Below, one piece after another: positions 17,604 to 28,273 of a stretch of 64,000 bases of DNA. Position 1 is the first letter of the stretch. Every line of letters starts with the position of its first letter. The notes beneath the pieces were generated by a model, which saw nothing but the letters and a program-made list of their open reading frames with translations, ran no database searches and had not been told where the DNA came from. The position numbers were made by a program, and so were the translations under genes. The stretch is from Haloarcula regularis (GTDB lineage Archaea > Halobacteriota > Halobacteria > Halobacteriales > Haloarculaceae), in NCBI RefSeq assembly GCF_029338315.1, contig NZ_CP119794.1:2046001-2110000 (forward strand). Direction: 5' to 3'.

Positions 17604-18596
17604 ATGCCATTCAAGGGCGGTTCTGAGCTCTCGGACGTGTACGACGTCGCGCTCGAGGAGGGCTTCGGCCTGGTCGCGAGCAACATCGCGGAACCGAATA
17701 TCATGATGGGCCTGCTGGAAGGGGCCTCCCGGGTCGAGTCCGACCTCCTGTTGCAGCTGAGCAACGGGGCCTGTACCTTCGCCGGCAACGGCGACCCCAT
17801 CGCGGGCCTGCAGGCGATGGGCAACTACATCGACATCATCGCCGAGCACTACGACATCGGAGTCTTCCTGAACATGGACCACCAGACGGATCTGGACCTG
17901 ATCGAGACACAGATCGACCTGGACATCCCCTCCTCGATCATGATCGACGCCTCCCACGAGCCCTTCGAGGAGAACGTCGCGACGAGCAAGGAGGTCGTCG
18001 AGATGACCGAGGACGCCGACAGCGACATCTTAGTCGAGGCGGAACTGGGCCAGATCAAGGGCGTCGAGGACGAGATCGAGTCCGAGGACGCCTTCTACAC
18101 CGACCCCGAGCAGGCCGTCGAGTTCGTCGACCGGACGGGCTGTGACCTGCTGGCCATCTCCGTGGGCACCCAGCACGGCGTCGCGAAGGGCAAGGACCTC
18201 GAACTGCGCCCGGACCTGGCACGAGACATCCGCGAGGCACTGTCCGACCATGGCCTGGACACGCCGCTGGTGCTACACGGCTCCTCGGGCGTCCAGGAAG
18301 ACCAGCTCCAGCAGATGCTCCAGCACGGCATCTGCAAGGTGAACAAGGACACCCGCTACCAGTACGAGTACACCCGCACCGCCTTCGACCTCTACAACGA
18401 GGAACCGACCGACATCGTCCCACCCGAAGGCGTCGACGGCGACCGCGATACCTTCTTCAACGACGTCGACTGGTCGCCCAACAAGGACCGCTTCGACCCG
18501 CGGGTCGCCGGCCGGGAGATCCGCGAGCGCATCGCCGACGTCCACGCCGATCTGGCCGAGATGGCCGGCAGCGCCGGACACAGCCAGTACGTCTGA
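17604..18596 (+). CDS. fba: Class II fructose-bisphosphate aldolase
   Basis: A 330-residue zinc-dependent aldolase that interconverts fructose 1,6-bisphosphate with glyceraldehyde 3-phosphate and dihydroxyacetone phosphate in gluconeogenesis. The likely metal-binding histidines are in [19 protein letters not shown] and LVLHGSSGV, and the phosphate-binding [14 protein letters not shown] follows. The upstream GGCTTTATATC box lies about 36-40 bases before the ATG. The class II enzyme, in place of the archaeal class IA type, fits some haloarchaeal lineages. Confidence 0.93.
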
Positions 18597-18716
18597 GCGG
18601 GGACCATCACGGCAGGGCACCTCGACCCCGCCTGCCGGCGGACTGACACGCCGCCAAAGAGTCATATGCCCAGCGGCCAATCCCTATTCAGCAATCGAGT
18701 CCAGCGAGCGCCGGAC

Positions 18717-20660
18717 ATGAGAGAGGGCAACACATCCGAGCCGTACCGGGAACGGGTCTACGAGGCCTTCGCAGACGAGGGGCTGTCGTTCGACGAGGCC
18801 GTCGAGACAGCCCTCCGGGCGGGCATGGAGAACCTGGACCTGTCGGTCGGGCTCGTCACGAACGTCGGTGAAAACGAACAGATAATCGAGTACGCGCTCG
18901 ACGACGACGGGGAGCTCCGGCCCGGCGATACCTGTCCGACGAGCGAGGCATACTGCCAGCGTACCGTCGAACTGGAGAGCGTATTGAGCATCCAGAACGC
19001 GCGGGCGTCGGCCGAAGTGACCGACGCCGCCGTCGAGCGCTTCGGGTTGGAGACCTACATCGGGAGCAAGGTCACCGTCGGAGGCGAGACGTACGGGTCC
19101 GTCTGTTTCGCCGACCGCGAGCGCAGAGCGGAGCCCTTCACCGAGGCCGAAGAACTGTTCGTCGAACTGGTCGCCCGGCTCGTGGGCTTCGGGCTAGAGC
19201 GGGTCGAGCACCGGCGCCGGCGCGAGGAGCGGACGGACCGACTCGCCGCCGAGAAGCGACGGCTCGAACGCATCGCCGAGACGAGCTTCGACATCATCTT
19301 CCGCGTCTCGGCGGACGGCCAGTTCACCTACGTCTCCCCGGCCGTCGAGCGGGTGCTCGGGTACACGCCGGCGGCGCTGACCGGCGAGCCGTTCGCCGAC
19401 TACCTGACGGCGGACTCGCGATCCGACGCGATGGCCGCGTTCGAGTCCGTCATCGAGGGCGGGACCGTCACCGGACTGGAACTGACATTCGAGGGCCGGA
19501 GCGGCGAGCAGGCGATACTCGAGGTGAACGCGGTGCCCGTCGACGAAGCCGACGTCGCGGTCCAGGGCGTCGGCCGGGACGTGACCGAGCGCAAAGAACA
19601 GGAGGCGGCGTTGCGGGCGCGGACGCGCGCAATGGACGCGGCGGCCGTCCCCATAACCATCGCCGAGGCCCGGGAGGGACCACCGGTGGTCGTGTACGCG
19701 AACGACGCGTTCGAGCGCGTGACCGGCTTCAAAGCCGACGAGATACGCGGCGAGAACTACCGGCGCCTCCTCGGCCCGGAGACCGACGCCAGCGACGTGG
19801 ACGCGGTCGAGACGGCCATCGAGGCGGAGCGACCGGTGACGACCGAACTGCTGAACTACCGCCGGGACGGGACGCCGTTCTGGAACCGCCTGACCATCAC
19901 ACCCATCGAGGACGCCGACGGCGAGACGAGCCACTTCATCGGATTCCACCAGGACGTGACCGAGCGGGTGCGTACCGAGCGCCTGGTCGACCTGCTGAAC
20001 CGCGTCTTGCGCCACAACCTCCGCAACGAGCTGACGGTCATCCAGGGGTGTGCGGACCTCGTCGACACGCGCCAGGAGGCGGGCGCGGACATCGAGGGAC
20101 CCCTCAGGCGGACCATCCAGCGGCTGTCGTCCCTGAGCAGCCAGGCCCACGAGCTCGAGACGTACGCGAAACAGCCACGGACGCCGGTCGAGCTGGATCT
20201 GGGGACGATGCTCCGGTCGGTGGCCGACGACCACCGGGCGCAGTATCCGGAGGCGACGATATCGGTCGCCGTCGAGACCGAGAGAGCGGTCAGTGCCGGC
20301 CGGGAGCTCGAGCGGGCCATCGCCGAACTGGTCACCAACGCGCTCGAACACGGGCCGGCGAGGACGACCGTCGACCTGGTCGCCCGTGACGACGGGCAGA
20401 CCGTCGAGGTGACCGTCGCAGACGACGGGGACGGCATCTCGCCGCTCGAGGCCGCCGTCGTCGAGGCCGGCCGCGAGACCCCGCTCGAACACGGCCGGGG
20501 GCTCGGCCTCTGGCTGGTCAACTGGATCGTCACCCGCTACGGCGGGTCCTTCCAGATCCGGCCCGACGACGGGACGGTGGCGACGCTACGCCTGCCCGCT
20601 ATCGGTCCCGGCCAGTCGGTCGACGACGCCGTGTGCCGGCCGACGACGCTGTTCCGGTGA
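18717..20660 (+). CDS. GAF-PAS-PAS sensor histidine kinase
   Basis: A cytoplasmic histidine kinase of about 647 residues with no transmembrane helix. The order is a GAF domain (about 10-165; YCQRTVELESVL, GSVCFADRERR), a PAS domain (about 185-300), a second PAS with PAC (about 310-430), an H-box VLRHNLRNELTVIQG (about 450) and an HATPase domain with N-box ELVTNALEHGPA and GRGLGLWLVNWI. The second PAS resembles LOV domains, but the flavin-binding Cys of GxNCRFLQ is replaced (GENYRRLL). A longer in-frame start exists at 18666; 18717 is preferred for its CTATTCA box about 30 bases upstream. No receiver domain and no adjacent response regulator. Confidence 0.88.
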   Translation: MREGNTSEPYRERVYEAFADEGLSFDEAVETALRAGMENLDLSVGLVTNVGENEQIIEYALDDDGELRPGDTCPTSEAYCQRTVELESVLSIQNARASAEVTDAAVERFGLETYIGSKVTVGGETYGSVCFADRERRAEPFTEAEELFVELVARLVGFGLERVEHRRRREERTDRLAAEKRRLERIAETSFDIIFRVSADGQFTYVSPAVERVLGYTPAALTGEPFADYLTADSRSDAMAAFESVIEGGTVTGLELTFEGRSGEQAILEVNAVPVDEADVAVQGVGRDVTERKEQEAALRARTRAMDAAAVPITIAEAREGPPVVVYANDAFERVTGFKADEIRGENYRRLLGPETDASDVDAVETAIEAERPVTTELLNYRRDGTPFWNRLTITPIEDADGETSHFIGFHQDVTERVRTERLVDLLNRVLRHNLRNELTVIQGCADLVDTRQEAGADIEGPLRRTIQRLSSLSSQAHELETYAKQPRTPVELDLGTMLRSVADDHRAQYPEATISVAVETERAVSAGRELERAIAELVTNALEHGPARTTVDLVARDDGQTVEVTVADDGDGISPLEAAVVEAGRETPLEHGRGLGLWLVNWIVTRYGGSFQIRPDDGTVATLRLPAIGPGQSVDDAVCRPTTLFR

Positions 20661-20703: not shown

Positions 20704-21935
20704 ATGGACGTCCAGTTTCTCGGCGGGGCCGGCGAGATCGGGCGCAGCGCCGTCCTCGTCGACGACCGGTTGCTGCTGGACTACGGGATGGCCAGCGAGT
20801 CGCCACCCCAGTACCCCGTCGGCGACGTCGACCCCGAGGCGGTCGTGGTCAGCCACGGCCACCTCGACCACGTCGGCGCCGTCCCCGCGCTGATGGGCGC
20901 GGGCGACCTGCCGCCGGTCCACTGGACGCCGCCGACGCGCGACCTGGCGGTGACCCTCGCCGAGGACACGCTGAAACTGCACGGCTCGACGCCGCGCTGT
21001 CCGTTCACCGAGACCGACGTGCGCCGGCTCACACAGGCCTCGCGGACCCACGGCTACGGCGAGACCTTCGAGGCGGCAGGCTACGAGGTGACGCTGTACA
21101 ACGCCGGCCACATCCCCGGGAGCGCCCACGTGCTCGTCGACGATGGCGAGACCCGCCTGCTCTATACGGGCGACTTCCACACCGGCCGCCAGCGCCTCGT
21201 CGAGGCGACGACGGCCCGGCCCGAGGCCGACGCGGTCATCTGCGAGTCGACGTACTCCGACGTGACCCACGAGGCCCGCGAGTCGGTCGAACAGCAGTTC
21301 GTCGAGAGCATCCGCCAGACGGTCTGGCAGGGCGGGACCGTCGTCGTCCCCGCCTTCGCCATCGGACGCACCCAGGAGGTGATGCTCGTCTGTGCGGCTC
21401 ACGACGTCGACTGCTATCTGGATGGTCTAGCCAGCGCGTGACCAAACAGTTCAAGCGCCACCCCGAGTTTTTGCGGGATGCCGAAGCGTTGCGTGGGGCC
21501 ACATCCGGCACTCGGTTTGTCAATGGCAAAGCGGGGCAACGTCACCGGATTGCTGCGCAAAACTCCGTGATAATCACCACGTCGGGAATGTTAAATGGTG
21601 GACCGGTTGTCTCGTACGTTCCCAAGATCCGGACGAACCCGACGAACAAGATCGCGATGACCGGCTATCAGGTCGAAGGCACGCCCGGCCGGGAACTCCT
21701 CGAACGGGGTCGAGCAGAATTCGACGGCCGAGTGATGCCTGTCAGCGCGAAGGTCGAATCATACGATTTCTCGGCCCATGCGGATAGAGATGGCTTGCTT
21801 GACTTTCTGGGTAACTACCGAGAGAGCGAGATTGTACTCAACCACGGGGACCGCTGTGGGGCCTTTGCTGAAGAATTACGAGCTGATGGCTACGATGCAC
21901 AGGCTCCCGAGCTTGGCGATGTGATAACCTTCTGA
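20704..21935 (+). CDS. Beta-CASP metallo-beta-lactamase RNase, chimeric and frameshifted
   Basis: Restored length is about 410 residues. The N-terminal 240 residues (high GC) carry the MBL zinc motifs SHGHLDHVG, AGHIPGSAH, YTGDFH and CESTYSD, plus VVPAFAIGRTQEVML. The C-terminal part (lower GC, from about 21418) carries TTSGMLNGGP, GYQVEGTPGREL, FSAHADRDGLLDF and LNHGDRC, the RNA-specificity beta-CASP motifs. One base is missing near 21430 (CTAGCCAGC; DGLGQRVTK expected), giving a false stop at 21438-21440. The composition change coincides with that position. A second, divergent copy of the same 3' end lies 6 kb downstream (27931-28273). The family has 5'-3' exo- or endoribonuclease activity. 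Confidence 0.85.
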
Positions 21936-22464
21936 TCGGGAAGAGACCTGAGCCGGTCCCTGAAAGACGAAACAACCGCTGAGCGAGTGAAATCTCAGTC
22001 GGTGATAGTTTGACGTGGGTGTGCTAAATACGGGGCGCGAGTCGGTCACTACTGCGTACTGAGCGACTGGCGGAATTCCCACCCAGAGACAGGAATCAGC
22101 ACCGTCCAAATTCGGGGAGTTCTTGCTGTGCGGAGCCACGCGTCAATAAGAGAGGACAGTTCATGCAGATACGATCGTTTACTCCTATCCCCGGCAGGGG
22201 GACGCGGAGTTATCTTGACCGAGACATCACAGCGGTTCGAGAGTGTGTCTCGTACATTCTGGGCCTCGGAGTCCCCGATATTGCCCGATTAGGTGGGCGG
22301 TCATACCGCCTCGGTGAACGTCATGCTACGACACGATGCTACGTAAATATCCGCACGAGCGTCGTGCGTGGTTCTTCGAAGAGTTGCCGGATTCTCTCCT
22401 CGAAGAAAGATAGGTCGGCCCCGAAGTTCGAACTGGCCTGAAAAATCGGTGTGTTGGTCTCTGT
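21936..22464. other. Non-coding island DNA, no supported gene
   Basis: This 529-base stretch has low coding bias on all frames. A 92-codon frame on the plus strand (22163-22441) is rich in Ser/Arg/Cys and unlike haloarchaeal proteins. A short stretch near 22350-22410 in another frame reads RRAWFFEELPDSLLEER before a stop; it may be the remnant of a lost gene. Confidence 0.5.
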
Positions 22465-23559
22465 CTACGCCGTTCTCTTGGAGAGTTCCATCCCCGTGCC
22501 ATCCAGCGCATAGAGGGTCCCGTCGTCACTCCCTATGTAGAGGGTTCTGTCAAACACTACTGGTGATGAGACGACTGACCCGTTCGTCTCGAAACGCCAC
22601 TGTTCAGTCCCTGTCGCGGCATCGATGGCGTATACGTGAGTCTCGTTATCGAATGGGGAGCCACTCCCCACAAAAACGGTTTCGTCCACCACTGCCGGTG
22701 ACGAGCACACGGAACCCCCAGTCTCGAAACGCCAGCGTTCAGTCCCTTTCTGCTTGTCCAAGGCATATACGTAGGTATCACAACTCCCGATATAGACCGT
22801 ATCATTTACCACTGCCGGCGACGAGTACACTTGATCACCAGTTTCGAAGCACCACCGTTCAGTGCCTGTTGAGCTGTCCACCGCGTATATGTGACCCTCA
22901 CCTTCGATTGGATTTTCACTCCCAACATAAAGGATACCATCCACCACGGTCGGTGACGAGTTTACTGCCATATTCGTCTCAAAGCGCCAAATTTCGGTCC
23001 CGCGCGCGGCATCTACGGCATAGATGTATCCATCAGGATCTCCAATGTAGACGGTCCCATCGACCACTGCTGGTGAAGAATTAACAGCTCCCCCATCGGT
23101 TTCGAAGCGCCAGCGCTCAGCTTCGCTAGCGGTGTCCAGCGCGTAGATGCAACCGTGCCCCGTACCGGCGACAAAGATCGTGTCGTCGACCACTGCTGGT
23201 GATGCACTGATCCCTCTATAGATATCGAACCGGTTGCGCTGTACCCCGCTGGCAGTGTCCAAACCGTAGACGCGACCATCACGACTCCCGACGTAGACGG
23301 TACGATCCACCACCGCTGGCGACGACCGAATCGCCCCATCAGTCTTGAACTGCCACTGCAGGTCACCGGTTGTGTCGAACGCTGTGATGCTCCCATCGAC
23401 TCCCGTAACGTAGACTTGCCCGTTCCAGACAGCAATCTCTTGTATGCGTGCGTCTAAATCATACGACCACTGAACAGTTGGGTCGCTGGCTGGAAATGTC
23501 TCAGCTGGCGTGTCGAAGCGATGGGTCGGGTTGTACATCCGAACGGTCCGGTCGGGCAT
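22465..23559 (-). CDS. PQQ-type beta-propeller repeat protein
   Basis: A 364-residue protein made of about eight blades of roughly 40 residues, each containing a variant of SSPAVVDxTVYVGSxDGxxYALDxxTGxExWRFET. This is the PQQ-like (BamB-like) beta-propeller. There is no signal peptide, lipobox or Tat motif, so it is predicted cytoplasmic, unlike many PQQ-repeat proteins. There is no sign of catalytic partner domains, so it probably acts as a scaffold. Base composition is clearly lower in GC than flanking core genes, consistent with recent acquisition on the island. Confidence 0.85.
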   Translation of the reverse strand: MPDRTVRMYNPTHRFDTPAETFPASDPTVQWSYDLDARIQEIAVWNGQVYVTGVDGSITAFDTTGDLQWQFKTDGAIRSSPAVVDRTVYVGSRDGRVYGLDTASGVQRNRFDIYRGISASPAVVDDTIFVAGTGHGCIYALDTASEAERWRFETDGGAVNSSPAVVDGTVYIGDPDGYIYAVDAARGTEIWRFETNMAVNSSPTVVDGILYVGSENPIEGEGHIYAVDSSTGTERWCFETGDQVYSSPAVVNDTVYIGSCDTYVYALDKQKGTERWRFETGGSVCSSPAVVDETVFVGSGSPFDNETHVYAIDAATGTEQWRFETNGSVVSSPVVFDRTLYIGSDDGTLYALDGTGMELSKRTA

Positions 23560-23865
23560 TGTCCCGAGAGAACCCCTACTCTCACTTTATTTCAGCCTGT
23601 GTTCAAGCTCGGCTCCACACGGCAACTGCGAGAGATGCGCTGTGTATCTTGTACAGCCCCTCTGGCTACTTATCATCTGTCAGGATCAGTGTGACCGATA
23701 CAGTCAGCAAACCACCTCGTTTCTTTCGTCTACGCTCTGGTGTACCCAGGACTCTCCGCTTGATCAACAATCACACAGGTACACGAGTCCGAAACAGAAG
23801 GGTCGTGTGAGAATATCGAACGGGAAGGCGATGTGCCGATCTGTAGGTATCGATCGGTCTGAGAG
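23560..23865. other. Island intergenic region, nothing recognised
   Basis: About 306 AT-richer bases between two minus-strand genes. Frames here encode no credible haloarchaeal protein. It contains the promoter region of the beta-propeller gene, but no clear TATA box could be assigned. Confidence 0.4.
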
Positions 23866-24246
23866 CTACTCCACTCCCTCAGAGAGGTGGAGTTCGTTGT
23901 CGCTGATTTCGATAAATATCGTCTGGTCGGGGTCGTCAGAGACTCCAACGACGGCAGTTTTGGCCACCGTGTCGTCGATACTGGCTATGACGGTGTATTC
24001 ACCGGGTTGAAGCAAGTTCACTGTGCATCCAGCCTGGTCTGGGATCAAGTGGTATTCGGTATCGTGGTACACTTCGCCGTCTTGTTCAATGCGTAATTGG
24101 ATATCGTATTCGGCGGTTTGGTCGTGATTGCGGATGTGGAGGTCTTCGCTTTCAAGCCGCCAGCGCGTCGTCGAATCAACCAGCTTCTCGGCATGGTCGA
24201 AGGGGGAGGGCATGCCCATATGCGTGTCGTCGGCAGGCACTACCAT
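23866..24246 (-). CDS. Unknown island protein, possible beta-sandwich (126 aa)
   Basis: A 126-residue acidic protein without signal peptide. The alternating pattern AEYDIQLRIEQDGEVYHDTEYHLIPDQAGCTVNLLQPGEYTVIASIDDTVAKTAVVGV resembles an Ig-like or CARDB-type beta-sandwich. I do not recognise the family. It lies upstream of the beta-propeller gene on the same strand, 306 bases away, and may be functionally tied to it. Internal Met codons at residues 10 and 12 are alternative starts. Confidence 0.55.
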   Translation of the reverse strand: MVVPADDTHMGMPSPFDHAEKLVDSTTRWRLESEDLHIRNHDQTAEYDIQLRIEQDGEVYHDTEYHLIPDQAGCTVNLLQPGEYTVIASIDDTVAKTAVVGVSDDPDQTIFIEISDNELHLSEGVE

Positions 24247-24944
24247 CGACCTGGCGAAGGCTCAAAATCTGGTTTGAGTTGCACAGCTGCGGGCGCTGGG
24301 CTTCAGTCGCACTGGAGCGGGACAGCGGCTGTCGGTTCGTGACTGGCTCACAATCTATTGTGCCGACGAACTGGCCGGTAGAGAGTGCGCGTTCAGCAAA
24401 TCCATACTGATGCCGTCGCCGCGGCCGACACACTGGCCACGCTTCCCGGGGCGACCGGGCCCGAGGTCAAGACACCCTCGAGGACTGACTCGCCGAGTGG
24501 AACGACCCCCTCTCGAACCTCGACCCCGTGTTCGAGCGGCTACAGGCCATGCAAAATCGGGGTGTGTGCGCCGACCGGGTCGACCAACTGGAGACGACCG
24601 TCGACGACACCGAGTGGCCAACGGTCACGGTTCCCGAGAGCGAGGAACTGTTTCCCGCCGACCCGCTGTACGACTCCAAGCGGGACGACGCTCAGAGCGT
24701 CCGGTGTGTCGAGCGGCACAAGTCGGAGTGAGGGGGTGAGACGAGGGGCCTTGTTGAAACCCTCAAGCGGAGATAGGTTTCAGAAGCCGTGCTGCATACA
24801 GCGCGCGAAGCCTCACCGGGAACGACGGGTGGGAAGTGGCTTGTGCAGGTGTCCCGGTCAACGACGAAAATGCCAGTTGAGTGGGTTTAACGGTGGTCTC
24901 TTTATTCAGAAATCATTTAATCGCCGGCTCAGCAGACTATCGTA
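24247..24944. other. Decayed island segment with gene and repeat remnants
   Basis: No intact gene. It holds the fragment at 24528-24731 and, just after it, an inverted repeat TGAAACC (24755-24761) / GGTTTCA (24776-24782) in a stretch GTTGAAACCCTCAAG...GTGCTGCATACAGCGCGCGAAGC. I suspect this is a leftover end of an insertion sequence, but cannot assign a family. The last 60 bases are AT-rich and probably hold the promoter of the membrane protein at 24945. Confidence 0.4.
24528..24731 (+). pseudogene. C-terminal remnant of an unknown acidic protein
   Basis: A 67-codon frame (FERLQAMQNRGVCADRVDQL...VTVPESEELFPADPLYDSK) with strong haloarchaeal amino-acid composition. The same frame continues upstream as LAEWNDPLSNLDPVFERL to an in-frame stop at 24486-24488, preceded by RGQDTLED. 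This suggests a longer gene truncated or broken by a stop. Function unknown. Confidence 0.4.
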
Positions 24945-25399
24945 ATGCGGCGCGTGCCGACTTCGCGCCAGTTAGCTGCTGGTACTGTTGCAGCATCGCT
25001 CTGTTCATTACCGGTGATTCTCGTCGCAAGTAGAATGCACACCCAACCCGATCCCGACGGGACAAGTCTAGCTGGTCTCGCTTACGCGATGCTGCTTGCT
25101 TTGGGACTTCTCAGTCTCGGAAGTGGTGGACTGCTAGCTGTACATACGCGGTGCAGTCCGGAACATGGCCACGGCACCTCCTATACACCGGCGCTGGAGC
25201 AGGCGCCGTGGCTTCAGTGGTGGTGATTTTGTGGAGCGGTGTCATCCAGATCCCGGAAACGTCGACCCTAGGGCCGTTGATTGCCCCTGTCGGTGCCGTC
25301 TTCTTCGGCGTTACCACGTTGGCAGCCGTGACGATATTACTCTGTGCAGTGTTGGGGGTGCTGATACAGGTCGTACAAACGATCACGACGCACAGCTAG
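24945..25399 (+). CDS. Four-helix membrane protein, unknown (frameshifted)
   Basis: Restored length is about 151 residues with four hydrophobic helices: LAAGTVAASLCSLPVILVAS, LAYAMLLALGLLSLGSGGLLAV, GAGAGAVASVVVILWSG and VFFGVTTLAAVTILLCAVLGVL. The first two lie in the frame from 24945. The last two lie in the next frame to 25399, with one base missing near 25145-25155. The paired helices and shared composition argue that this is one gene. No family recognised. Confidence 0.55.
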
Positions 25400-25516
25400 T
25401 CAACAGCTGCGTCCACTATTTCAGCCTGAGATAGTGTATTCTGGGAACAGTCGTACGACATCGGAACGGCAGGACAGTCGCAACGGAAACGATTGAGCGG
25501 TACATCAAGCGGGGCG
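25400..25516. other. Short non-coding gap before hairpin element B
   Basis: No gene or site recognised between the membrane protein and the left end of the hairpin element. Confidence 0.4.
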
Positions 25517-26021
25517 GTGTTTAGTTAAGAGCGGATAACCGCAAACAGCCAGAAAGCCTCGGCTGTCATCGGGCGCGAAGCGCCCGATTGCCCGCGAGAC
25601 CTTCGGTCTCGCCCTGGCTGAACTCGGGGGACTCGCTGTCGTTCGAGAGAGCGAGGCTCTCTCGTGATGACGAAAGACCGCCGGTCTTTCGAACCACGGT
25701 CCTCACTCACTCCGATCGTTGCGGTCCTTGTGATCTGAAAATCGCCGTCAGCGATTTTCATCATCACGAAAGACGCTTCGCGTCTTTCGGCGACGTCGTC
25801 CACCGTCGTTCAGTCAGCCGCCCGTAGCCGGGTGGATAGCCGGCCTGGGTGGGACGGAAAGGCAGCGAGGGACCGGCGGTCCCACGTCTTGGTGAGCGGG
25901 CCTTGCGCGGCGCTACGCGCCGCGAAGTCGAGGCGGCAGAGCCGCCTCGCTGCCCGCGAACCAACGCTGAGCGCGCGGGGGCTTTCTGGGTCTCTGAACC
26001 GGGTGCTGCTAAAATAAACAC
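25517..26021 (+). repeat. Mosaic hairpin element, copy B (505 bp, core inverted relative to copy A)
   Basis: Outer ends GTGTTTAGTTAAGAG (left) and AATAAACAC (right) face the same way as in copy A. Between the inner repeats (ACAGCCAGAAAGCC at left, GGGGCTTTCTGGG at right) the core runs in the opposite direction: ATCGGGCGC-gaa-GCGCCCGAT and GCGAGACC-ttc-GGTCTCGC come first, and GCGGCGC-tac-GCGCCGC and GAGGCGGC-aga-GCCGCCTC come last. It has extra modules missing from copy A (AAAATCGC stem near 25738-25759, AAAGACCG stem near 25672-25692). It lacks the part of copy A between two GGGACC stems. It lies inside the island. Confidence 0.85.
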
Positions 26022-26045
26022 TACCACGGTAAGCGGGCCGGCCGT

Positions 26046-27302
26046 TTAGAGTTCGATCGGGTCCTGGCCAGGCGCAAGGCGTTCGTTGAGTTCGTCGAGG
26101 TCGAGTTCCAGGCCCAGGCCTGCGCCTTCGGGGACCTCGATGCGACCGTCCTCGATGAGCGGGTCGCCGATGTAGAGGTCGTCCCACCAGTCAACGTCGC
26201 GAGCGTGCCACTCGAGGACGAACGCGTTCGGCACGGTCGCGCAGGCGTGCACGCTCGCGACTGTACCGACTGGGCTGGCGACGTTGTGTGGCGCCACCGG
26301 AACGTCGAAGGCGTCGGCGAGGGCGGCCATACGACGGAACTCCGAGAGCCCACCACACTTCTGGATGTCGGGTGCGGCGACGTCGAGGGCATCCGCAGTG
26401 AGGAAAGGCAGCAAGCCTTCGACGCGCGTGATGTTCTCACCCGCGAGTATGGGCGTCGACGTGGCCTCGGTGACGCGCCGGTGGGAGTCTGCGTTCTCCG
26501 GCGGAACGGGGTCCTCGAGCCATGCGATGTCGAACTCTTCGAGCTCGCGCGCAACGCGAAGAGCAGTCTCCACGTTGAAGTTCCAGTGGAGGTCGAACGC
26601 GAGTAGCGGGTCGGTCCCGATGCGTTCGCGGACTGCCTCAACGACGTCGACTTTGTGCTGGACGGCGGCGTTCGAGAGGTGGCGGGTCGCGGTATCCGCG
26701 TCGCCAGCGGCGACATCAAGATCGAACTTGAGTGCATCGAAGCCCTCGTCGATGACTGCCTCGGCTGCGTCGGCATACGCTTCGGGTTCGTACGCTTCGA
26801 AAGACTTCTGGGACCCCTCATCGAGGTGGGCGCCAGCGTGACTGTCACAGTAGATGCGGATCTCGTCGCGGTATTTCCCGCCGAGGAGTTGATAGACGGG
26901 GAGGTCGACGAGCTTTCCGACGGCGTCCCAGAGCGCAGTTTCGATGCCAGAGACGGCCGCCTGCGAGAATCCAGTACCGCCGGCAAGTCCCGAAAGAAGC
27001 TGTGTCATGTGTTCGGTAAGGCGCTCAACGTCGTAGGGGTTCTCACCGACCAGGCCGGGTTCGAGATACTCGATGTGCTCGCGGATAGGGCCATTATACG
27101 CTTCCCCGACGCCAGTGACGCCAGCGTCCGTCTCCACGGTAATGATGTTCCACGGAAAATTCCCACCGACGACATGACAGTTGATGTCGGTTATTTCGAT
27201 GTCGCGACTTGGATCGCGCGACATCCCGCGGTCGCTGAGATCACGCCACTCGATTCCGCCCTTCATCTCTGCAACGAGGTGATGGTATTTCGAGTTCGGC
27301 AT
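26046..27302 (-). CDS. Enolase-superfamily (mandelate racemase/muconate lactonizing) dehydratase
   Basis: A 418-residue enzyme of the MR/MLE group, whose members remove a proton alpha to a carboxylate and often dehydrate sugar acids. Probable metal ligands are Asp in LAFDLHWN, Glu in AWLEDPVPP and Glu in ILAGENI; the catalytic-type His lies in VAPHNVASP. The His after the third metal ligand fits the galactonate/gluconate dehydratase-like subgroup, so a sugar-acid dehydratase is likely; the exact substrate cannot be read. CTATTTAAACAC, about 27 bases before the ATG at 27302, is the TATA box. It stands alone on the island with no sugar-pathway partner. Confidence 0.88.
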   Translation of the reverse strand: MPNSKYHHLVAEMKGGIEWRDLSDRGMSRDPSRDIEITDINCHVVGGNFPWNIITVETDAGVTGVGEAYNGPIREHIEYLEPGLVGENPYDVERLTEHMTQLLSGLAGGTGFSQAAVSGIETALWDAVGKLVDLPVYQLLGGKYRDEIRIYCDSHAGAHLDEGSQKSFEAYEPEAYADAAEAVIDEGFDALKFDLDVAAGDADTATRHLSNAAVQHKVDVVEAVRERIGTDPLLAFDLHWNFNVETALRVARELEEFDIAWLEDPVPPENADSHRRVTEATSTPILAGENITRVEGLLPFLTADALDVAAPDIQKCGGLSEFRRMAALADAFDVPVAPHNVASPVGTVASVHACATVPNAFVLEWHARDVDWWDDLYIGDPLIEDGRIEVPEGAGLGLELDLDELNERLAPGQDPIEL

Positions 27303-27340
27303 TGTGCGGTAGGTCCATCTCTCGTAGTGTTTAAATAGAT

Positions 27341-27930
27341 TCAGTCACGGAACGGGAATACCTCTCCGCCGAATTGAGGGGATGAATACAACACTCTCAC
27401 CACTGTCTCGGTTCGTCACACACGTCCCGAGAGCCCGCAAGAAGAGGGTGTGTGGGGATTGCCTGATGTGTGTGAACGGGCTGTTTCGACGTCGAAGGAT
27501 GGACGAGTGATGCACGAGGGTGCACAGAGAGCGTGTCTAGCGGGTGGATATGGCCGATTCACAGAGTCCCGTCTGGGAGTGAGACGGGAAATCTGCGAAG
27601 GAATAGGTGGCCAGCGAGAGAACCGCAAGACGGCAACCGTGTGTGGAACTGTGAGGCCACGAAGTAACAAAGGGATAGCGTGTCGAAGTCCCAGTATGTG
27701 AATCGTGAATCAGCAGTGAGGGGTCCCCACGTGCCTGTTTCTTGGCGAATCCCGGGTTCGGTGGGGTCCGCAGGGACGGCGACGCCTTCTACACACACTT
27801 TTCGAATATTCGCCCTACAACCCTTCTTGCGGCCGAATTCGACAGGTGTGAAAACTAACCGAAATAGAGTGCACTGTCGAGAGGTCCGGAAACCGAGTCT
27901 CTGCTGTTGGTGTATACTGTGAGAGATGCC
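27341..27930. other. Right end of island, non-coding
   Basis: About 590 bases without a credible gene. GC is lower than in flanking core genes and no long open frame has haloarchaeal composition. It ends where native nuclease sequence resumes at about 27931. No direct repeats or integrase site were recognised by eye. Confidence 0.5.
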
Positions 27931-28273
27931 TCGGGCGGCCCGGCGATGATATACGTGCCCGCCATTCGCGGACACCCGACGAACACGGTTGCGCTGACGG
28001 GCTATCAGGTCGAGGGCACACCGGGCCGGGAACTGCTGGAGACCGGCAGCGCCGAGTTCGACGGGCGGATACTATCGGTGAGCGCCCAGGTCGAGTTTCA
28101 CGAGTTCTCCGCTCACGCCGACCCCGAGGGGCTCCGTGACTTCCTCGAGCCCGCCCGGGACAGCAGGGTCCTGGTCACCCACGGCGACCGCTGTGACGCG
28201 TTCGCGGCGGCCCTGCGCGAGGACGGCTACGACGCCGACGCGCCCGGAACTTGGCGAGACCGTCACCCTCTGA
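27931..28273 (+). pseudogene. Displaced native 3' end of the beta-CASP nuclease gene
   Basis: This high-GC remnant begins at SGGPAMIYVPAIRGHPTN and runs through GYQVEGTPGREL, FSAHADPEGLRDF and VTHGDRCDAFAAAL to the expected PELGETVTL stop at 28271-28273. One extra G near 28250 shifts the frame just before the end. It corresponds to about residues 300-410 of the nuclease and has no start or MBL domain of its own. Its composition matches the 5' half at 20704-21418, so those two pieces were probably one gene. Confidence 0.85.

Follow-up and report, generated by a model that had tools for sequence, protein, structure and literature searches.

How can a single haloarchaeal nuclease gene come to have two 3′ ends, one fused to its 5′ half and the other lying beyond an island of accessory DNA? 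This arrangement was found in the window, i.e. the whole 64,000-nucleotide stretch of the Haloarcula regularis genome analyzed here (NZ_CP119794.1, positions 2,046,001 to 2,110,000); the 3.6-Mb host genome belongs to the genus shared with Haloarcula salina. In our view the locus is the relic of an integrative element that uses the sequence GATGCTC (codons G295-M296-L297 of the nuclease gene) and was later reshaped by recombination between the host gene and an element-borne copy, a reading to which we assign a probability of roughly 0.7. The site-specific origin of the insertion is strongly supported, and the restoration of the gene by homologous recombination with the element-borne copy is inferred with moderate confidence.

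The affected gene encodes a protein of 410 aa with, in order, MBL, beta-CASP and RMMBL domains (profile matches PF00753, PF10996 and PF07521). Its best solved relatives are 2xr1, 3af5, 9bct and 2dkf (archaeal CPSF/FttA proteins and TTHA0252). The same three domains are characteristic of the archaeal beta-CASP nucleases aCPSF1/FttA, TTHA0252 and type VII Cas14, but the protein lacks the N-terminal extension of aCPSF1 and scores far under the NCBIfam cut-offs for aCPSF1 and Cas14. In the sample of the order, none of the 347 genomes of good quality lacked the gene. At one locus (L115 of G236) it is apparently broken by frameshifts without any insertion, so the gene can be lost.

Features of the window locus. 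Positions are those of the window.
Feature	Position	Strand	Evidence
Native 5′ part of the MBL/beta-CASP nuclease gene (MBL domain)	20704..21400	+	92% DNA identity to sister G005; PF00753; tree with G005, support 0.996
Interval of the switch from native to foreign sequence	21388..21420	+	Likelihood change point, residues 229-239
Loss of 1 base (ggtCTAGccag), throwing the 3′ half out of frame	21427..21430	+	Alignment with 14 relatives
Overlap of 5′ ORF stop and 3′ ORF start (GTGA)	21438-21441	+	
Foreign low-GC 3′ half (end of beta-CASP, RMMBL)	21421..21935	+	PF10996, PF07521; tree; ORF 21438-21935
Counterpart of the integration core in the foreign half (AATGTTA, not GATGCTC)	21587..21593	+	
Island: mosaic of accessory DNA with plasmid-related repeats	21936..27385	.	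GC 0.53-0.66
PQQ beta-propeller gene, in island	22465-23559		
Small ORF, in island	23866-24246		
MR/MLE dehydratase gene, in island	26046-27302		
Right end of the element	27386..27924	+	~78% identical to DNA adjoining the G015 remnant
attR core GATGC(T)C, one T lost	27925..27930	+	Alignment of 8 right junctions
Native 3′ remnant of the nuclease gene, +1 frameshift near 28247	27925..28273	+	G005-like

Comparison with the sister genome G005, in which the nuclease gene is unbroken, matches on both flanks and contains no island (a precise empty site), allowed the origin of the pieces to be traced. DNA identity to G005 is 92% up to residue 231 and 66% after it, and GC3 falls across this switch from 0.95 to ~0.6. 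The change from host to foreign sequence was placed at residue 231 (2-logL interval 229-239, window ~21388-21420; delta logL 66.9), with native control genes giving delta logL values of at most 5.5 in the same change-point test. From position 27925 the sequence is G005-like again (86-96%). A tree of the 3′ parts puts the remnant beside G005. The foreign half is placed away from the natives of the genus and forms a group with G015 and QS_6_64_34 (support 0.985), to which G239 and Halorussus are more loosely attached. The two 3′ ends share 61% protein identity. Derivation of the remnant from a beta-CASP paralog was rejected, the other beta-CASP genes of the genome being only 34-44% identical. 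The gene is in one piece in 30/30 other genomes of the genus that have it, and an extra remnant occurs only in G015. The foreign half does not cluster in the tree with the element-borne copies of G169, G201, G292 or G034, and no close match to it was found in plasmids, phages or IMG/VR.

These data bear out the original prediction that the native 5′ half is joined to a lower-GC 3′ half of other origin, with the native 3′ end of the same gene past the island and only moderate similarity between the two ends. The further proposal, that a complete chimeric nuclease had been restored, was not confirmed. One base is missing at 21427-21430 relative to every aligned relative (n = 14; ggtctagccag versus ggnatgggncag), as a result of which 21441 is the last base of the 5′ ORF, and the 3′ ORF, complete to its stop (21438-21935), restarts at GTG 21438. 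The sequence as it stands therefore encodes no full-length nuclease; the frameshift may be a sequencing error.

Some further observations concern the surroundings of the gene. An unannotated stretch of ~216 bp (22179-22394) occurs with 75-85% identity in many haloarchaeal plasmids and looks like a small repeat element, and a short stretch at 24752-24807, found also within the G015 and G034 loci, is possibly an insertion-sequence end. Directly upstream of the nuclease gene lies a PAS/GAF histidine kinase gene (18666-20660) that is not at that place in G005, where window positions 18592 and 20625 map 65 bp apart.

The insertion in the window is one of a series. Genome scans covered 148 genomes of the family and 394 of the order (overlapping sets; ~450 haloarchaeal genomes in all), and revealed at least eight loci, including the window, at which the nuclease gene is split at one identical base. 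The split site lies in codons G295-M296-L297 (of 410 residues), with the core GATGCTC. The right junctions of the window, G015, G034, G056, G059, G169, G201 and G292 join the native gene at this one base; the last six were added by the wider scans, together with G239, whose remnant begins later, so that its core is lost. GATGCTC is found at both ends in G059, G169, G201, G292 and G034, and in the window at the right end only, one base short. At the left junctions of G059, G169, G201 and G292 it is followed by GGAAACGAAGAT(T/C)CGCTAGCAG, and an inverted arm precedes it at the right ends (clearest in G169, G201 and G292). The left arm of G034 is a variant, G056 has the core without conserved arms, and the right-end arm of the window resembles the others weakly. 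Judged by its sequence, the core with its inverted arms is a putative attP of the layout used by tyrosine recombinases, and the right junction of the window is the attR of the element. At all six left junctions (G034, G056, G059, G169, G201 and G292), each of which adjoins the integrase or its conserved arm, the nuclease gene is truncated.

G015 provides the closest parallel to the window. It has a detached second 3′ end ~85 kb downstream of an intact gene bearing the same foreign 3′ half. The 539 bp preceding the window remnant are ~78% identical to the DNA preceding the G015 remnant, and the two loci also share ~40 bp past the stop codon. In the tree the G015 remnant falls with its own clade of natives and not with that of the window, so the two insertions hit different native alleles. 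Beyond the remnant, the G015 locus contains a third nuclease 3′-end fragment (E coordinates 90981-91121), which suggests repeated events at the site. The G034 locus, in which a native fragment (residues 243-298) directly abuts the left junction of an 83-kb element and a separate in-frame copy of the gene lies 10 kb upstream, must also have undergone more than one event.

In five elements (G056, G169, G201, G292 and G034) a tyrosine integrase of a single family is encoded near the left junction, ~0.5-2.6 kb into the element; for the homologs of the G056 enzyme in the other four the distance is ~1.1-2.6 kb. Its members are 38-93% identical to that of G201, which passes the PF00589 cut-off (35.6 bits), and the family keeps the R, K, HxxR and Y positions; it is this enzyme that probably performs the insertion. 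For related integrases found elsewhere in the family, the 1.5 kb of flanking DNA examined did not contain the nuclease gene, so these enzymes probably use other sites. The integrase family had no match in the sequence examined of the window, G015, G239 or G059, and no close match anywhere in G000 or G015, whose sole integrase matches are to a recombinase found in nearly all genomes of the family. Since the integrase is absent from the window and G015 and present in five related elements, we speak of a relic and not of an intact element. The window example is old and partly erased.

Searches for other targets and carriers gave little. A tRNA gene as target was rejected, as the window contains none and none lies beside any of 21 related integrases. 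The integrase matched nothing in phages and only distant sequences in plasmids, the right end had no plasmid match, and the exact attP and right-end patterns had zero matches in IMG/VR. A free viral or plasmid form was rejected accordingly, none of the searches with the 3′ half, integrase, attP and right end having returned a close match. The core GATGCTC and one conserved arm were seen beside an unrelated site-specific integrase on a plasmid of Haloterrigena sp. KLK7 (NZ_CP149788.1; L168 14001-14033), at a site with no nuclease fragment.

The proposed course of events would run as follows. The tyrosine integrase, encoded just inside the left end, would insert the element at GATGCTC and truncate the host gene. 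The truncated host 5′ part would then recombine with a directly repeated, element-borne nuclease copy (or 3′ part), an exchange that would delete host residues ~231-294 together with the integrase and the left end of the element. The expected product is a gene fusion (host 5′ part, element 3′ part), after which come the right-hand portion of the element, attR and what is left of the host 3′ end. Because the integrase truncates the gene and does not rebuild it, restoration looks like a separate, later event. Host fragments track the host phylogeny in the tree and restored 3′ halves do not. The placeable left switch points are at residues 231, 257, 268 and 297 (that of G015 is too broad, 252-330) and fall within the final quarter of the homology available. 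They differ between genomes, as homologous recombination predicts, but crowd towards the core more than would be expected if crossovers were spread evenly along a full-length copy. No intact element of the window/G015 type, combining the 539-bp right end with a complete nuclease copy, turned up among the genomes scanned, so the restoration step was not seen in progress. A 3′ drop in GC3 with no second 3′-half match was recorded at L130 (G249), L131/L038 (Halorussus amylolyticus), L132 (G222) and L093 (G050), which are possibly further swapped nuclease genes.

The original prediction envisaged a circular molecule that carried a homolog, recombined into the gene without an integrase and thereby restored its target. 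Mobile DNA did enter the gene, but homologous integration of a simple circle by the Campbell route was rejected: it should leave overlapping copies, whereas a gap of ~60 codons separates the left switch (~231) from the first residue of the right copy (about 295), with host residues ~231-294 missing. The lack of an integrase is true of the window and not of the related elements, in which both a tyrosine integrase and an att core are present. As for restoration, the junctions on the integrase side truncate the gene, and in the window the fusion is out of frame and the switch lies away from the core. A classic restoring integration, in which attP bore a replacement 3′ half and gene conversion later shifted the left boundary upstream, would follow the usual rule for gene-targeting integrases (PMC10111431). 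It would also suit the switch of G249, at residue 297 (288-298) and thus right at the core, and the ~40 bp past the stop codon common to the window and G015. We nevertheless consider it unlikely, given the truncation at 6/6 left junctions, the out-of-frame fusion, and a window switch (229-239) some 60 codons upstream of the core (295-297); a simple crossover at the core would have kept host sequence to residue 295.

Two other readings were weighed. Exchange of the 3′ half by ordinary allelic recombination among haloarchaea, with an unrelated island arriving separately, would account for the similar 3′ halves of G249 and Halorussus amylolyticus, where no remnant was detected; it is hard to reconcile with the contiguity of foreign 3′ half, island and remnant in the window and with the stretch right after the stop codon that is common to the element of G015, and we regard it as very improbable. 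Even less credit is due to homologous capture on the left combined with illegitimate joining on the right, without any site-specific enzyme. The island does lack an integrase, and its left boundary lies within homologous sequence, with host sequence replaced and not duplicated, but the right boundary matches seven other insertions to the base, several of them with the integrase and the 7-bp core, and the right end seen in the window recurs in G015 at exactly that base.

The relic reading draws on nuclease copies carried by elements, and complete extra copies appear in four: G169, G201, G034 and G292. In G169 and G201 a full-length nuclease gene, oriented like the host gene, is found 2.4-3.9 kb away from the right junction, G034 has an inverted full copy inside the element, and in G292, a fragmented MAG, the full copy is on a contig separate from the element. 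G056 and G059 have no full copy. The G169 and G201 elements are near-identical, of 42 kb and nearly the same gene order, and occupy the same nuclease site in two haloarchaeal families (L120, L121 and L114 for G169; L118, L119 and L113 for G201). Their nuclease copies are 87-97% identical over the first 297 residues and have GC3 of ~0.5-0.8, against host-like values of at least 0.8 in the host gene fragments. Both elements bear Dpd-type defence genes (7-deazapurine DNA modification); the G201 element encodes DpdA-, DpdC-, DpdH- and DpdJ-like proteins and PLD proteins.

The spare copies would compensate for disruption of the host gene. We tentatively raise the possibility of a ‘disrupt and rescue’ element, which hits a near-universal nuclease gene and also supplies a spare copy, made immune by silent changes at the target site. 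GGG-ATG-CTC is kept in 62 of 83 native genes, with 12 expected from codon usage, and in none of nine element-borne or restored copies (Fisher p 1.6e-5, with several of the nine sharing ancestry). This test of core loss is confounded, as the AT-richer codon usage of the copies alone gives 0/9 with a probability of 0.32; their own codon usage would thus yield this result about one time in three, and protection of the copies from their own integrase is therefore hypothetical. Across 80 loci, GC3 drop and non-canonical core were not associated (p 0.77).

A conserved haloarchaeal gene now has an identified attachment site, used across families, with an integrase, core and arms. Chimeric or duplicated alleles of the nuclease gene in these genomes are thereby explained, and how elements of this kind become grounded can be put to a tractable test. 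No report of this nuclease gene as an integration target was found in the open papers searched.

In e14 and phage 21, which integrate in icd, attP holds the replacement sequence, and the target gene is rebuilt in frame as soon as the prophage integrates. The nuclease-site elements resemble these target-restoring prophages, and tRNA-gene islands, in that element 3′ sequence is fused to the host 5′ part; the prophages rebuild their target, whereas the integrase-bearing nuclease-site elements truncate it. Integration into archaeal protein genes is already known from thaumarchaeal iMGEs (PMC6563490) and from halovirus BJ1 and others (reviewed in PMC8371274). Common to archaeal integrative elements and those described here are a tyrosine recombinase, a short att core, a protein-gene target, an empty site in relatives and re-use of the site. 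Thaumarchaeal iMGEs hit 3′-distal gene regions (PMC6563490), whereas here the core occupies residues 295-297 of a 410-residue protein, which loses its last quarter on integration; some nuclease-site elements, unlike archaeal protein-gene elements, also bear a whole spare target gene. An attP usually holds a replacement of the target gene, regulated-gene-integrity elements being the exception (PMC10111431). Like these and the HE-PICIs (PMC10111431), the nuclease-site elements disrupt a gene without an attP replacement, and precise excision would restore it, but up to four of them supply a full copy elsewhere. Breaking a conserved nuclease gene yet carrying a full copy of it is possibly a third way of dealing with target damage, beyond attP replacement and regulated excision: truncating elements with a separate full copy of their target fit neither the attP-replacement nor the regulated-integrity class neatly.
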